A stretch of DNA of 64,000 nucleotides, taken from assembly GCF_901538265.1 (NCBI RefSeq), contig NZ_LR593886.1:62001-126000 (forward strand), given 5' to 3'. Below, piece after piece: positions 59,576 to 64,000 of the stretch; within the stretch, counting starts at the first letter, position 1, and each line of letters starts with the position of its first letter. A program made the position numbers and the translations under genes. Under the pieces are notes generated by a model, which was not told the origin of the DNA, did not search any database, and worked only from the letters and a program-made list of their open reading frames with translations. The stretch is from Gemmata massiliana. GTDB lineage: Bacteria > Planctomycetota > Planctomycetia > Gemmatales > Gemmataceae.

Positions 59576-60205
59576 CTAGCGGTTCCGCCAGTAGAACTCC
59601 TCGTTCTGTTGAAAGCGACAGGGCGCGCCCGTCGTGCAGAGCCGACCGGACCGAGCCTGCTTGCTCGGGAGGTCAGATTCCTTGATGCCACTCTTATCGA
59701 GTACGCTCAGGAACTCCGTCCACTTCATGAAGCGCCCCTGGCCGCGGACGAGTTTTCGGATGTCCGCCGGGGACCAAGCCCACTTGGTGTCCACCGACCA
59801 CTTGAAGCCGTGGTACCCGCCGGCGTGAAGGACGCGGGAGACGATCGTCGAGCAGTTCTGCCGGAGCGCGTGGTACTTCGTTCCCTTCTCGGAGAACGTG
59901 TTGGAGATCTCCTTCCACGCCGCTCGCATGTTGTTTTCTTGTTGTGGGTTGGTGTCCAGTCGGATGACGTGATCCGGTAGATACTTCTCGCTCACGATGT
60001 CCTGGATGAAGAACTGCTCGGACAAGCCATCTTTGGAAAGTACCGTCGGGACGAGCGTTTTAAGGGCAATGCCGAAGCCCGAGAACTTCTGTGCCGACTG
60101 CGGCCACCAACTGACGTAACACTTCTCTCCACCGCGCTTGTCTCGGATCTGGAACTTGTCTCCGATGTTCATGGCCGCGTGGCCGGACCATGTTTTACCG
60201 CTCAC
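59576..60205 (-). CDS. papain-like (circularly permuted NlpC/P60-type) hydrolase, probable cargo of mobile element
   Basis: 209 aa with the proposed start GTG 60205 (CAAGG upstream). His precedes Cys: WSGHAAMNIGD holds a candidate catalytic His (residue 9) and HALRQNCSTIVSRVLHAGG the candidate nucleophile Cys 118 (N-C-S/T), the order of circularly permuted NlpC/P60/LRAT-like enzymes. KCYVSWWPQ is a motif that I associate with such proteins in bacterial effector and phage-linked settings. It could cut peptides, amides or thioesters. No signal peptide. A longer frame reaches 60334 but runs through a 24-bp palindrome and into the integrase promoter, so I reject it. Divergent from the integrase gene and convergent with the TolC-like gene (5-bp gap). 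Confidence 0.7.
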   Translation of the reverse strand: MSGKTWSGHAAMNIGDKFQIRDKRGGEKCYVSWWPQSAQKFSGFGIALKTLVPTVLSKDGLSEQFFIQDIVSEKYLPDHVIRLDTNPQQENNMRAAWKEISNTFSEKGTKYHALRQNCSTIVSRVLHAGGYHGFKWSVDTKWAWSPADIRKLVRGQGRFMKWTEFLSVLDKSGIKESDLPSKQARSGRLCTTGAPCRFQQNEEFYWRNR

Positions 60206-60237
60206 GGCCTTGTGACCGACCGTGTTGTTCTCCCACA

Positions 60238-60261
60238 GAAACTGTTCAATTGAACAGTTTC
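60238..60261. promoter_or_regulatory. perfect 24-bp palindrome between the papain-like and integrase genes
   Basis: Half-site GAAACTGTTCAA (60238-60249) is followed by its exact reverse complement. It sits 33 bp upstream of the 60205 start and 107 bp before the integrase start. AT-richer than its surroundings. Candidate operator for both divergent genes. Confidence 0.7.
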
Positions 60262-60367
60262 GGGGCCGCTCTCTCGAACGGCTCGAATTCCAGGCGATTT
60301 GACTCTTTCTCTCGCGTGGGGTAAATCCGGACACGTGTCACACATGATCATTATTTCGGAGAGGGAA

Positions 60368-61657
60368 ATGCCAACTGGGACGAACACATTTGTTGAGTTG
60401 CGTGGCGAGAGGATTACGCTCGCGGAGCTAGCCAAACGGACCGGTATCAACGTGGCGACCCTTCGCGCGCGGATCTTCATCTACGGGAAAACGGTCGAGG
60501 ATGCGGCCGCCGCACCGTTGCGGAGGAAGTGCAGTAACGGCGGGCGCCCGACGGCGAACGTGCCGCGGCCGGTGCCCAACCTCAAGCGGCATCCCAGCGC
60601 GCGGGCGTACTCGCGGTGGCGCTTGAACGGGAAGGTGTTCGAGCGCTATTTTGGCAAATACGGATCGCCGGAAGCGAACGCGGCTTACCGCCGGTTCGCG
60701 GCGGACTGGTTGGCCGGCAAGTACGACGTGTCGCCGGAAATGGGCATGAAGAACGGGGGCGGGCTATCCGTCGCGTACCTCGCCGAGAGGTGGATGGCAT
60801 ACGTCCGCGATTACTATCAAAAAAACGGCAATCCGACGAGCGAGGTTAAAACGTGTCTCTCGGCGGCCCGGCTGCTGAACGATGAGCGGGGCGCGATGCT
60901 CGCGGCCGACTTCGCGCCAGCCGATCTGCGCGCGTGTCGAGAAGTGTTGATCGGACGGGGCCACTCGCGCACCACGGTCAACGCCTACGTCAACCGTGTC
61001 GTGCGGATGTTCGCGTGGGGTGCCGGGCAGTCCTTCGTACCCGCCAACGTACACGGAGCGCTGAAGTTGGTCGAGAAGCTGAAGCCCGGCCGGTCGGTTG
61101 CACCGGACCTGCCGCGCAAGAGGCCCGCGACCGATTCGCAGATTGAGGCCACACTGCCGCACCTGGCGCCGAACGATCCGAAGCAGCAGGTGGTGCTCAC
61201 GACGATGATCCGCTTGCAGCGGCTGACCGGCATGCGGCCCGGCGAACTGTGCGCAATGGAGGCGGGTGATTTGGAACGCACAGCCGACGTGTGGATCTAC
61301 CGGGTTGGCAAAGCCAACAAGAATCTTCACCGAGGCAAGCTGCAGACCTACTACCTCGGACCCAGGGCAGTCGCCCTTTTGACGCCGTACTTGGCGGGAG
61401 CCACGGCCGGCCCCTTGTTCCCCTTCGACCCGAATGCTTACGCGCAGGCGGTCGCGCGCGCCTCGATCAAGGCCGGGTGCAAGTGGACTCCCCACCAACT
61501 GCGCCACGCCTTAGCGACGGAGGTTGCGGAGAAGTTCCGCAGCCTCGACTACGCGGCAGCAGCAATTGGTGACACAAAGGCAGTCGCTGAAGCAGTTTAT
61601 GTTCATATCGATCCGGATGAAAAGGCGAAAATTGAAATCGCGAAACGGATGGGCTAG
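60368..61657 (+). CDS. tyrosine recombinase/integrase
   Basis: 429 aa. N-terminal segment with a small HTH-like part (ITLAELAKRTGINVATLRARIFIYG), a middle SAM-like core-binding domain (residues ~130-245), and the catalytic domain (about 255-425). Catalytic residues: Arg 290 (TGMRPGEL), His 376, Arg 379 and His 380 (TPHQLRHAL), Tyr 411 (AEAVYVHID); the usual His/Trp is replaced in context by DTKAVAEA. A complete active site means it is probably functional. ATG 60368 has GGAGAGG upstream. Its DNA-binding N-terminus is longer than in phage lambda Int. It marks the left part of a mobile element; attachment sites have not been located. Not adjacent to a tRNA gene in this window. Confidence 0.94.
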   Translation: MPTGTNTFVELRGERITLAELAKRTGINVATLRARIFIYGKTVEDAAAAPLRRKCSNGGRPTANVPRPVPNLKRHPSARAYSRWRLNGKVFERYFGKYGSPEANAAYRRFAADWLAGKYDVSPEMGMKNGGGLSVAYLAERWMAYVRDYYQKNGNPTSEVKTCLSAARLLNDERGAMLAADFAPADLRACREVLIGRGHSRTTVNAYVNRVVRMFAWGAGQSFVPANVHGALKLVEKLKPGRSVAPDLPRKRPATDSQIEATLPHLAPNDPKQQVVLTTMIRLQRLTGMRPGELCAMEAGDLERTADVWIYRVGKANKNLHRGKLQTYYLGPRAVALLTPYLAGATAGPLFPFDPNAYAQAVARASIKAGCKWTPHQLRHALATEVAEKFRSLDYAAAAIGDTKAVAEAVYVHIDPDEKAKIEIAKRMG

Positions 61658-61781: not shown

Positions 61782-61833
61782 CGTCGCCAACTTGCATCTG
61801 CGCGCAGACGTAAACGGATGCAAGTTGGCGACG
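61782..61833. repeat. 17-bp perfect inverted repeat
   Basis: CGTCGCCAACTTGCATC (61782-61798) and its exact reverse complement (61817-61833), 18-base loop that itself starts with the palindrome TGCGCGCA. Confidence 0.85.
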
Positions 61834-61836
61834 CGC

Positions 61837-61887
61837 CCCTTGACCCGACCCTTGACCCGACCCTTGACCCGACCCTTAAGGGTCGGG
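61837..61887. repeat. 12-bp tandem repeats ending in a 20-bp palindrome
   Basis: CCCTTGACCCGA occurs three times in a row (61837-61848, 61849-61860, 61861-61872). It then runs into the perfect palindrome with half-site CCCGACCCTT (61868-61887). Confidence 0.85.
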
Positions 61888-62480: not shown

Positions 62481-63032
62481 ATGAATCCCTCAGCCGGAAG
62501 CGTAGAACCGACCCGCGCGCCGATCGAAGCCTCTGACGCAGACATGAAGGCTGCGTGCGAGTGGGCGATGAGCTACGCACGGAAGCGCGCTCGTGGTAGC
62601 AGCGAGGTCGAGGAGTTACTGGTCGACGCGGCTACCGACGCGCTCATGTGGGCACGGAAGAACTGCAAGGATGCAAGTACATTCGTTCCGCTGGCGAAAG
62701 CTGCGACACGGCGCTGGTTCGGTCGCGCCCTGCACCGGTTGAAATTGAGGCGTGCGAACCGTCCGCAGTTTGGTGAGCTAACGGCCGGCACTGATCGTGC
62801 GCGAGCCACGAAACCAACCCGCCCAACCCTGATTGAGGAACTCCCTGAAGATCTCGCATTTATCGCACGATTGTACACAATTGACGCCTATTCGATTCGC
62901 GAGATCGCGTTGCTAACCGGCAAGTCTCATAGCACGGTTCACATCGCGCTTCACAAGGCGGCCGAGCTACTCGCGGGCGGACGAGAGCGGCCGATCCGCA
63001 AGGCTGGAACGAAATGTTTGAGCGCGGGTTGA
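62481..63032 (+). CDS. sigma-70-like regulator with region-4-type HTH
   Basis: 183 aa. The N-terminal half is helical (ACEWAMSYARKRARGSSEVEELLVDAATDALMWARKNCKDASTFVPLAKAATRRWFGRALHRLK), the layout of a diverged sigma region 2 (the 'VEELLVDAATDALMWARKN' line recalls the core-binding helix). The C-terminal half has a region-4 HTH (LPEDLAFIARLYTIDAYSIREIALLTGKSHSTVHIALHKAAELL). Such sigma-like proteins occur in phages and integrative elements as late-gene regulators. GAGGACC precedes ATG 62481. A terminator follows directly, so it is monocistronic. Its targets are unknown; the next gene is a candidate. Confidence 0.78.
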   Translation: MNPSAGSVEPTRAPIEASDADMKAACEWAMSYARKRARGSSEVEELLVDAATDALMWARKNCKDASTFVPLAKAATRRWFGRALHRLKLRRANRPQFGELTAGTDRARATKPTRPTLIEELPEDLAFIARLYTIDAYSIREIALLTGKSHSTVHIALHKAAELLAGGRERPIRKAGTKCLSAG

Positions 63033-63162: not shown

Positions 63163-64000
63163 ATGAGCATCGAGCCGAACGCCGTGAACCGCATGAGGGC
63201 CGGGAAAGTCAGTGACACTCTCGACATCCGCGAAGTTGCTGACGCCTTGAAGTGCCACCCGATCACGATCCGCAGGCTGATTAAGAGCGGGCGATTCCCG
63301 CGACCGATCCGCGTAGGCAACGCGCTCCGAATTCGGCGTGATGAACTCAAATCGTGGATGGATGCGGGTGGATCGTTCGGCCCGCGTGTCGAGTGCCGCG
63401 CTGCTGTCGAAGGTGGTTCGGAAAAGCGCTACGCGGGGAACGCGATCGCCCCGACCCTGCGCGCTGACGGGACTGGTGCTGGTATCCTCACTGGTTACGC
63501 GGCCGTTTTTTACGACGGCACCGACGGCACCGAATACGAACTTTCCACGAACACCTACGAGCGCGTATCTCGCAGCGCGTTCGCCCGCGACCTGAGCGCG
63601 CGAGCCGACGTCGTCGCGAGCTTTAATCACAACGTTGATCTGCTGTTGGGTCGCACGGCTTCCGGCACACTCCGGCTCTCGGTGGACTCGCGCGGACTGC
63701 GTTACGAACTGGACATCCCCAACACTACGCTCGGGCGCGACGTGGCAGAACTGGCCCGCCGCGGGGATCTGCGCGGCAGTTCCTTTCAGTTCGTCACACG
63801 AACCGAGAAGAGATACGAGGACGGGGGCCGGACAATTCGCGAGTTGACCGACGTGCAGTTGATCGAGTTGGGGCCGGTGTGGTGTCCAGCGTACTCCGGC
63901 ACTTCAACGGGACTATCGGGTTCGGGGCATCCCTCGCGGGCGAGCGCAGACGCGGATCTGATCGCCGTGCAACTCGCGCTGATGGCGATGGACGAAAGCG
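63163..64000 (+). CDS. excisionase-type HTH fused to HK97-family prohead protease (3' truncated by window)
   Basis: 279 codons are open to the right edge with no stop, so the gene continues. Residues ~20-70 form a MerR/excisionase-like HTH (LDIREVADALKCHPITIRRLIKSGRFPRPIRVGNALRIRRDELKSWM). From about residue 107 an HK97-family prohead (capsid maturation) protease follows: GYAAVFYDGTDGTEYEL, YERVSRSAFARDL, VVASFNHNVDLLLGRTASGTLRL with candidate catalytic His 156, LRYELDIPNT, RRGDLRGSSFQF with the Ser at 206/207, and VQLIELGPVWCPAYSGTS. ATG 63163 has GGAG 8 bases upstream. Prohead proteases normally start at the protease fold, so the HTH is an unusual addition. Partner genes (capsid, portal, terminase) must lie outside the window. 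Confidence 0.88.
   Translation, partial: MSIEPNAVNRMRAGKVSDTLDIREVADALKCHPITIRRLIKSGRFPRPIRVGNALRIRRDELKSWMDAGGSFGPRVECRAAVEGGSEKRYAGNAIAPTLRADGTGAGILTGYAAVFYDGTDGTEYELSTNTYERVSRSAFARDLSARADVVASFNHNVDLLLGRTASGTLRLSVDSRGLRYELDIPNTTLGRDVAELARRGDLRGSSFQFVTRTEKRYEDGGRTIRELTDVQLIELGPVWCPAYSGTSTGLSGSGHPSRASADADLIAVQLALMAMDES

Follow-up and report, generated by a model that had tools for sequence, protein, structure and literature searches.

In extracts of the published descriptions (PMC6092414, PMC10690885, PMC11364771), phage satellites of the PICI/SaPI and P4-like types measure about 10–15 kb, carry an integrase and excisionase-type HTH genes and have no complete virion of their own; some encode a small terminase (TerS) and some redirect capsid assembly by means of a scaffold. 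In PICIs, AlpA acts as an activator (extract of PMC6092414), in PLE the formation of small capsids is driven by a scaffold (extract of PMC10945586), and scaffolds and TerS of satellites are likewise described in the extract of PMC10690885. By the definition given in the latter, a cf-PICI possesses its own capsid, portal, connectors and large terminase (TerL).

The locus described here lies in a window of 64,000 nucleotides, the whole stretch of DNA that was analysed, comprising bases 62001–126000 of the 10.1-Mb single-contig genome of Gemmata massiliana (G000). The last gene of the window encodes a helix-turn-helix (HTH) domain, a head-maturation protease and a cysteine-containing tail in one protein. 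It belongs to an island that resembles the PICI/SaPI and P4-like satellites in size, integrase, excisionase-type HTH, small terminase, lack of a complete virion and, putatively, a scaffold that redirects capsid assembly; as a small integrated element without a complete set of virion genes, it shows the general trait of a satellite. A maturation protease unaccompanied by a capsid gene, and likewise a tape-measure gene, are features that the extracts of PMC6092414, PMC10690885 and PMC11364771 do not mention for these satellites. We set the island beside PICI, P4-like elements and PLE by their published descriptions. With the cf-PICIs, as far as the extracted text describes them, it has in common the small size, the integrated state and some head genes of phages, among them those for a maturation protease and a small terminase; unlike them, it carries tape-measure-like and tail-chaperone-like genes, and no capsid, portal, connector or TerL was found. 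As we looked for the capsid, portal and TerL genes that define a cf-PICI and did not find them, the island is not one.

At the level of single domains, the protease is like the Peptidase_S78 or HK97-type proteases (PF04586, TIGR01543, phrog_80) in that it passes their cut-offs, conserves the H, S and E residues and has a predicted fold near T4 gp21. In contrast to these it is fused to an HTH and a Cys-tail domain, with no capsid or portal gene found alongside. The HTH similarly falls with the HTH_17, TIGR01764, AlpA and BldC proteins by models above cut-off and a predicted winged-HTH fold, although here it stands in a morphogenesis operon and carries a protease.

The fusion gene

The island of the window occupies the G000 locus L008, in which positions are those of the window minus 59000. 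The fusion gene and its parts, in window coordinates, are as follows.

63163..64000 (+): HTH–head-maturation protease–Cys-tail fusion gene, 346 residues, stop at window-equivalent 64203 (L008:4163-5203)
63211..63378 (+): HTH domain of the excisionase/AlpA/BldC class (HTH_17), residues 17–72
63379..63444 (+): linker, residues 73–94, modelled at low confidence
63445..63912 (+): Peptidase_S78/HK97-type protease domain, residues 95–250, with H156, S207 and E227

A single uninterrupted frame runs from the ATG at 63163 to the window end and on to the stop 203 bases beyond it, and GGAG stands 8 bases upstream of the ATG. Both the unbroken frame between the parts and the ribosome site given in a preliminary description of this DNA thus hold. 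The same is true of the Xis/AlpA-like N-terminal domain proposed there: HTH_17 matched residues 20–68 of the full protein with 43.6 bits (cut-off 27), the NCBIfam excisionase family DNA-binding model TIGR01764 scored 32.8 bits against a cut-off of 28.8, and in PHROGs the protein matched phrog_66, excisionase and transcriptional regulator (E 5.1e-10). The Phage_AlpA model reached 11.8 bits, below its cut-off of 21. Excisionase-type is hence the correct sequence class for this HTH, and an excisionase function is putative. For the protease, Peptidase_S78 (PF04586) covered residues 102–250 with 120.5 bits (cut-off 21), proheadase_HK97 (TIGR01543) scored 72.2 bits against 59, and phrog_80, head maturation protease, matched with E 1.2e-36. 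The protein truncated at the window end had given 44.3 bits for HTH_17 and 121.1 bits for Peptidase_S78. With the downstream sequence and the whole protein in the Pfam search, a check that had been suggested, both domains stood and an extra C-terminal domain came into view.

This third conserved part spans residues 285–346 and matches no Pfam family. It ends in CxxCGEDELDxCFC in L008 and in a second copy, L010; because of these cysteines we suppose that the tail may bind zinc. In a 16-row alignment, which left out four free HTH genes and the free tail genes, H156, S207 and E227 were conserved in at least 90% of rows, and we take these residues to be the catalytic triad. Of the protease motifs named earlier, His 156 is confirmed, and of the two serines then considered it is S207 and not S206. 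A sequence search of the PDB with three fusion proteins returned nothing better than E 0.34.

Predicted structure of the fusion protein

An AlphaFold model computed from the 16-row alignment (mean pLDDT 75.8, pTM 0.51) resembles beads on a string, in the order HTH, protease and C-terminal helices at residues 260–279 and 288–316. The HTH is modelled with pLDDT 85–92 in blocks 21–70; pLDDT falls below 50 at residues 74–93, and confidence is low at residues 247–266. The predicted protease part aligned with the T4 gp21 protease over 132 residues (Z 9.5, 3.0 Å) and with herpesvirus proteases (Z up to 7.9). The closest folds to the predicted HTH were the excisionases RdfS (Z 8.0, 4.1 Å, model residues 6–69) and GIsul2 (Z 7.3, 1.7 Å, model residues 17–69) and BldC (Z 7.2), with Pukovnik Xis also near. 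Values of Z below 8 can reflect a common arrangement, and the domain assignment is therefore carried by the sequence evidence. In Foldseek, no PDB entry matched the fusion model with E below 0.001 (best 3.4e-3); among predicted viral structures there were 155 hits at E up to 0.001. Among the matches listed, the named ones were prohead or head-maturation proteases and a few capsid proteins.

Copies of the fusion and selection

Of 95 family genomes, 2 contained full-length matches to the fusion, at three places in all; the best candidates of a first look, at most 21 per genome, were scored, a depth at which a weak relative could be missed. Beside L008 these are L010 in the same genome, 54% identical to L008, and L045 in G012, a second species of the genus, 55% identical to L008 and 79% to L010. 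In all three the three domains are present and the frames are open end to end.

By the Nei–Gojobori method, dN/dS for the fusion is 0.23 for L010 versus L045, and 0.29–0.33 for the more distant pairs, in which synonymous sites are near saturation. Resolved by part, pN/pS between L010 and L045 was 0.09/0.36 for the HTH, 0.05/0.36 for residues 73–104, 0.09/0.38 for the protease and 0.26/0.60 for the C-terminal domain; the per-domain ratios of L008 against L010 or L045 were noisier, up to 0.68 for HTH and linker. The fusion is a true gene under purifying selection. Three intact, selected copies in two species rule out a sequencing artefact or a read-through, and the search for homologues called for in the preliminary description, which had proposed a genuine fusion, thus returned two more proteins of the same build.

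In a phage collection 442 records matched the fusion and in a plasmid collection 89, none of which covered 80% of the query. Among the open-access literature matches listed, none describes such a fusion or such islands; in PMC5512222 the prohead protease occurs in the reference list alone.

The island of the window

The ends of the island follow from empty sites in two other species of the genus, G009 (L102) and G012 (L103). Both are colinear with G000 up to genome position 122240 and again from 137516, with 13–14 bases overlapping at the join, which places the island at about 122227–137529 (15.3 kb). It starts at window position 60227 and extends about 11.5 kb past the window end. Its features, in window coordinates unless stated otherwise, are the following.

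59576..60334 (−): open reading frame of the gene hit by the insertion (Lnb_N match below the Pfam cut-off)
60227..60240 (no strand): attL, left island end, GTTCTCCCACAGAA, from the empty-site comparison
G000:137516-137529: attR, outside the window, ATTCTCCCACAAAA, from the empty-site comparison
60368..61657 (+), L008:1368-2657: tyrosine integrase with N-terminal HTH (PF00589 E 3.9e-11; phrog_1 E 6.5e-29)
62481..63032 (+), L008:3481-4032: sigma-70 region-4-like protein (Sigma70_r4_2, 26.1 bits against 25.7)
L008:5262-6143: p290, coiled-coil protein next to the fusion
L008:6166-6474: small protein with a match to phrog_12296 'tail fiber' (E 6.2e-19)
L008:6532-7899: tape-measure-like gene, by a local model built from prophage proteins
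L008:7896-8270: tail-chaperone-like gene (phrog_344 E 0.0024; Phage_TAC_13 19.8 bits, under the cut-off of 28.8)
L008:8413-8934: small terminase, TerS (Terminase_4, 77.1 bits against 24.7)
3' of TerS: accessory end of the island, with HTH_3, ArsR-type, LuxR-type and response-regulator proteins

The insertion replaced the first codons of the target gene, whose original start codon is now at attR. Integration at a defined site is shown by this comparison, and we infer that the island is mobile at present. No direct repeats of at least 20 bases flank the four islands that were tried. A scan of eight loci for exact matches of at least 12 bases missed the att of the window's island because its core has a mismatch.

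The starts of two genes were picked by eye against L045, that of the integrase, whose longest reading frame begins at 60299, and that of the sigma-like gene. The latter is 61% identical to its counterpart in L045 and has a relative in six of the eight islands compared here (L008, L010, L011, L045, L049, L052, L053 and L054). The N-terminal HTH of the integrase lies at window 60407–60475 (HTH_24, 23.1 bits against a cut-off of 21.9), and similar N-terminal stretches can be seen by eye in the integrases of other islands. A tandem 12-base unit of the GACCCGACCCTT type occupies window 61830–61877, in the gap between the integrase and sigma-like genes. A replication gene was recognised neither in the window's island nor in L045; among other islands, DnaB occurs in L010, L011 and L122, and AAA_25 in L049 and L054.

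Sister islands and the three states of the module

Relatives of p290 were found at 16 places in 9 of the 95 family genomes, again with the best first-look candidates scored (here at most 26 per genome), so that a weak relative could be missed, and genes were called in all 16 neighbourhoods. HTH, protease and tail are fused at three of these loci (L008, L010, L045). At four more (L011, L049, L052, L053) protease, HTH and tail are three adjacent genes in that order, the tail of L052 having lost its Cys motif. L054 has the HTH and tail genes and L122 a tail gene with a weakly matching HTH (E 1.8e-4), both with no protease detected, and in L123 the HTH and tail genes are followed by the contig end. 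L125 holds protease-like stretches, one of them with a stop, and L126 and L127 show neither capsid nor protease. A capsid gene was detected at 3 of the 16 loci, L047, L121 and L124, and p290 adjoins it in each. It lies downstream of the capsid gene in L124, and in L047, which also has a free protease, the two are separated by about 770 bases with an opposite-strand reading frame between. The sister islands were studied as stretches of about 12–17 kb cut at the fetched pieces, and ends are defined for the window's island alone.

This survey makes HTH and tail the constant pair of the islands proper, with the protease absent, upstream or in between. The H, S and E residues are retained in the fused and in the four split proteases. 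The preliminary description had suggested that capsid assembly or maturation is coupled to DNA binding. A functional link between HTH and protease is indeed likely, as the same three domains adjoin as separate genes in four sister islands; a place of the gene in a phage capsid operon is not supported.

A distinct explanation for the fusion, already offered in the preliminary description, is that of a self-cleaving transcription regulator, in which the S78 protease would cut the linker and free the HTH. LexA and CI are the comparison for a regulator of this kind. The predicted low-confidence stretch at residues 74–93 between the domains would suit such a cut, and both HTH and protease have stayed intact under selection. 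On the other hand, a related HTH is a free-standing gene in sister islands, the third domain is conserved as well, and L054 and L122 keep HTH and tail genes where no protease was detected, so that the HTH in general does not depend on the protease. We thus consider self-cleaving regulation quite improbable as the function of the fusion.

In the protease tree, which contains four rows with very long branches and in which L066 and L091 are the same reading frame, the fused proteases of L008, L010 and L045 form one group, supported at 88/78 (not starred). A topology holding fused and split island proteases together was not rejected (AU p 0.151). By BLAST, the L008 protease is 45% identical to that of L046 and 48% to that of L047, both capsid-bearing loci, versus 34–41% to the split ones. 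These identities would fit a phage source of the fused protease; the tree allows either origin, a phage or a sister island.

Other island genes are selected too, with dN/dS of 0.18–0.48 for the tape-measure gene and 0.22–0.45 for TerS; p290 (0.32–0.63) and the chaperone gene (0.12–0.70) give weaker values near saturation. Between L008 and L011, TerS is 94% identical and the tape-measure gene 53%, and such uneven divergence within one island pair is as expected of exchanging mobile elements. The predicted model of p290 (mean pLDDT 74.6) features an 80-residue helix, and its fold search against the PDB gave no match with E below 0.001.

Several observations concern individual loci. Near its integrase, L010 has a further HTH_17-like gene, which at 26.7 bits narrowly misses the cut-off of 27. 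The islands L011 and L045 stand beside the same gene in two species (L011:1566-2620 and L045:13238-14325, 74% identical DNA), suggesting that different islands, split in G000 and fused in G012, have repeatedly occupied one site; the flanking gene has no close copy in a third species, the next best being 40% identical. L011 also contains a CRISPR array between its TerS gene and accessory-type genes (L011:13845-15188, G000:C1:1373844-1375187), with 19 repeats of 36 bases and spacers of 34–42 bases. The genome contains 17 exact copies of the repeat, all inside the array, and against the loci compared here the spacers gave short, chance-like matches alone. A stretch of other layout in the same genome, L014:4114-13705, encodes an integrase, an HTH-like gene, an AAA_25 protein, a diverged S78-like protease (283 residues) and a protein matching the tape-measure model of the islands; its called genes include no capsid, portal or TerL match. 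The integrase-bearing stretches L047:1802-12546, which also has a sigma-factor gene, and L121:3101-11061 have p290 beside a major capsid gene and no portal or TerL match among their called genes, and may be capsid-bearing relatives of the islands.

Capsid, portal and large terminase genes were not found in the islands

The preliminary description proposed to look for major capsid, portal and terminase genes next door. The island yielded no match to a major capsid, a portal or a large terminase, and an ordinary capsid operon past the window end is ruled out, since the L008 downstream region contains no capsid, portal or TerL. The two genomes with fusions do contain such genes elsewhere: the capsid family PF05065 and the portal family PF04860 each occur at three places in G000 and five in G012, and the large terminase family phrog_9 at three places in each genome, with none of these within their six islands. 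The family phrog_2, a poor terminase family for these prophages, had no place in the islands either; the prophage TerL that was tested is phrog_9 by PHROGs. In G000, capsid, portal and TerL occur together at three loci, at 3.97 Mb (L013), 5.36 Mb (L012) and 10.0 Mb, which presumably are prophages and might act as helpers. Two stops lie within the terminase match at 3.97 Mb.

We also searched with models built from local prophage genes, most of which were labelled from gene order and size. Their detection in 8 of 8 prophage loci is by construction, as those loci supplied the models. The capsid model, however, also finds capsids outside its training set, in L047, L121 and L124, and the L121 protein is a major head protein by phrog_10 (E 1.4e-60). 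With a single example tested per gene, PHROGs confirmed the prophage TerL, adaptor, chaperone and TerS, and gave no match for the tail-tube gene. Two of four tested prophage tape measures (L012, L048) were named by PHROGs, and the other two, L013 and L050, match nothing. The tape-measure model, made from five prophage proteins, recognised seven of the eight islands (E 4e-12 to 0.0016; L053 was missed) and the TerS model three of eight; the tape-measure-like proteins of the islands themselves found no counterpart among the named tape-measure families of Pfam, NCBIfam or PHROGs.

Could the islands be remnants of decayed prophages that lost capsid, portal and terminase, with the fusion as a by-product of decay? 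Their recognisable parts are phage genes, the tape-measure gene of L052 is split into two frames, a protease-like stretch in G071 has a stop, and L008 and L045 are without a recognised replication gene, all of which would agree with decay. Stops reported at the third locus of G000 are, going by their coordinates, ends of separate genes and no sign of breakage. Yet no match to the local capsid, portal, TerL and connector models turned up in any of the eight islands, whereas all eight have retained the integrase, p290, the HTH and the tail gene. The dN/dS of 0.23–0.33 for the fusion, with selection on the tape-measure gene and TerS, likewise speaks against decay, as do the mosaic exchange between islands and the precise empty site. 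We hence regard a prophage remnant as unlikely.

Since the island yielded no capsid genes in our searches, its protease may act on the particles of another virus. Our best reading is of a satellite-like island whose protease would mature or subvert the heads of another phage, with the HTH/Cys-tail protein as its partner.

A possible mechanism

We see an even chance that the fusion is a morphogenesis gene of a phage-satellite-like island, with late genes driven by a helper, p290 as scaffold and heads matured by the protease. During growth of a helper phage, the sigma-like factor and the HTH protein of the island might switch on the island's late genes. p290 might then substitute as a scaffold for the helper's capsid protein, a role that its place beside a capsid gene in three loci and the 80-residue helix of its predicted model lead us to propose. 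The protease would cut away the p290 scaffold, or the capsid's own N-terminal part, and so allow the particles to mature, and the island's small terminase would fill the matured particles with island DNA. In this lineage, where the HTH protein and its Cys-tail partner flank the protease within one chain, the protease would be made together with them and located with them. As a guess, the HTH may tether the protease to island DNA or to a promoter before assembly sets in, and the protein could later free the protease by cutting itself in the flexible linkers.

More tentatively, the islands could form a kind of satellite that carries modifiers of the virion and none of its bricks. A scaffold-like protein, a maturation protease, a tail tape measure, a tail chaperone and a packaging selector, all encoded by the satellite, would then work on capsid and tail proteins supplied by a helper. 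In one branch the protease would be tied to a DNA-binding protein, which would couple head maturation to island DNA. We hold this wider reading to be possible, with doubt prevailing.

The same gene set might alternatively serve as an anti-phage interference cassette, in which the protease, p290 and the tape-measure-like and chaperone-like proteins would be decoys that spoil assembly and the HTH a regulator. Tail assembly blockers encoded by satellites or prophages offer a precedent, Tai in the extract of PMC11364771 and Tab, which acts on the tape measure, in that of PMC10884400, and the scaffold of a small-capsid satellite inhibits its phage (extract of PMC10945586). The integrase and the small terminase, however, point to transfer, beyond defence alone, and a pure decoy would not need the conserved active-site residues. 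Interference as the role of these genes thus seems rather improbable to us, although interference and satellite transfer are not exclusive and both can hold.

Implications for satellite biology

As far as the extracted descriptions go, the published capsid-remodelling satellites either alter the helper's head, by means of a scaffold or of a variant capsid, or assemble complete heads themselves. If our reading of a satellite-like island is true, an island that itself supplies the maturation protease, the tape measure and the small terminase, and has no capsid, portal or TerL, would parasitise virion assembly in a further way. The fusion offers a direct test of whether DNA recognition can be tied to head maturation. 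With free, fused and absent protease within one genus, the evolution of a fused phage enzyme becomes traceable in Gemmata.
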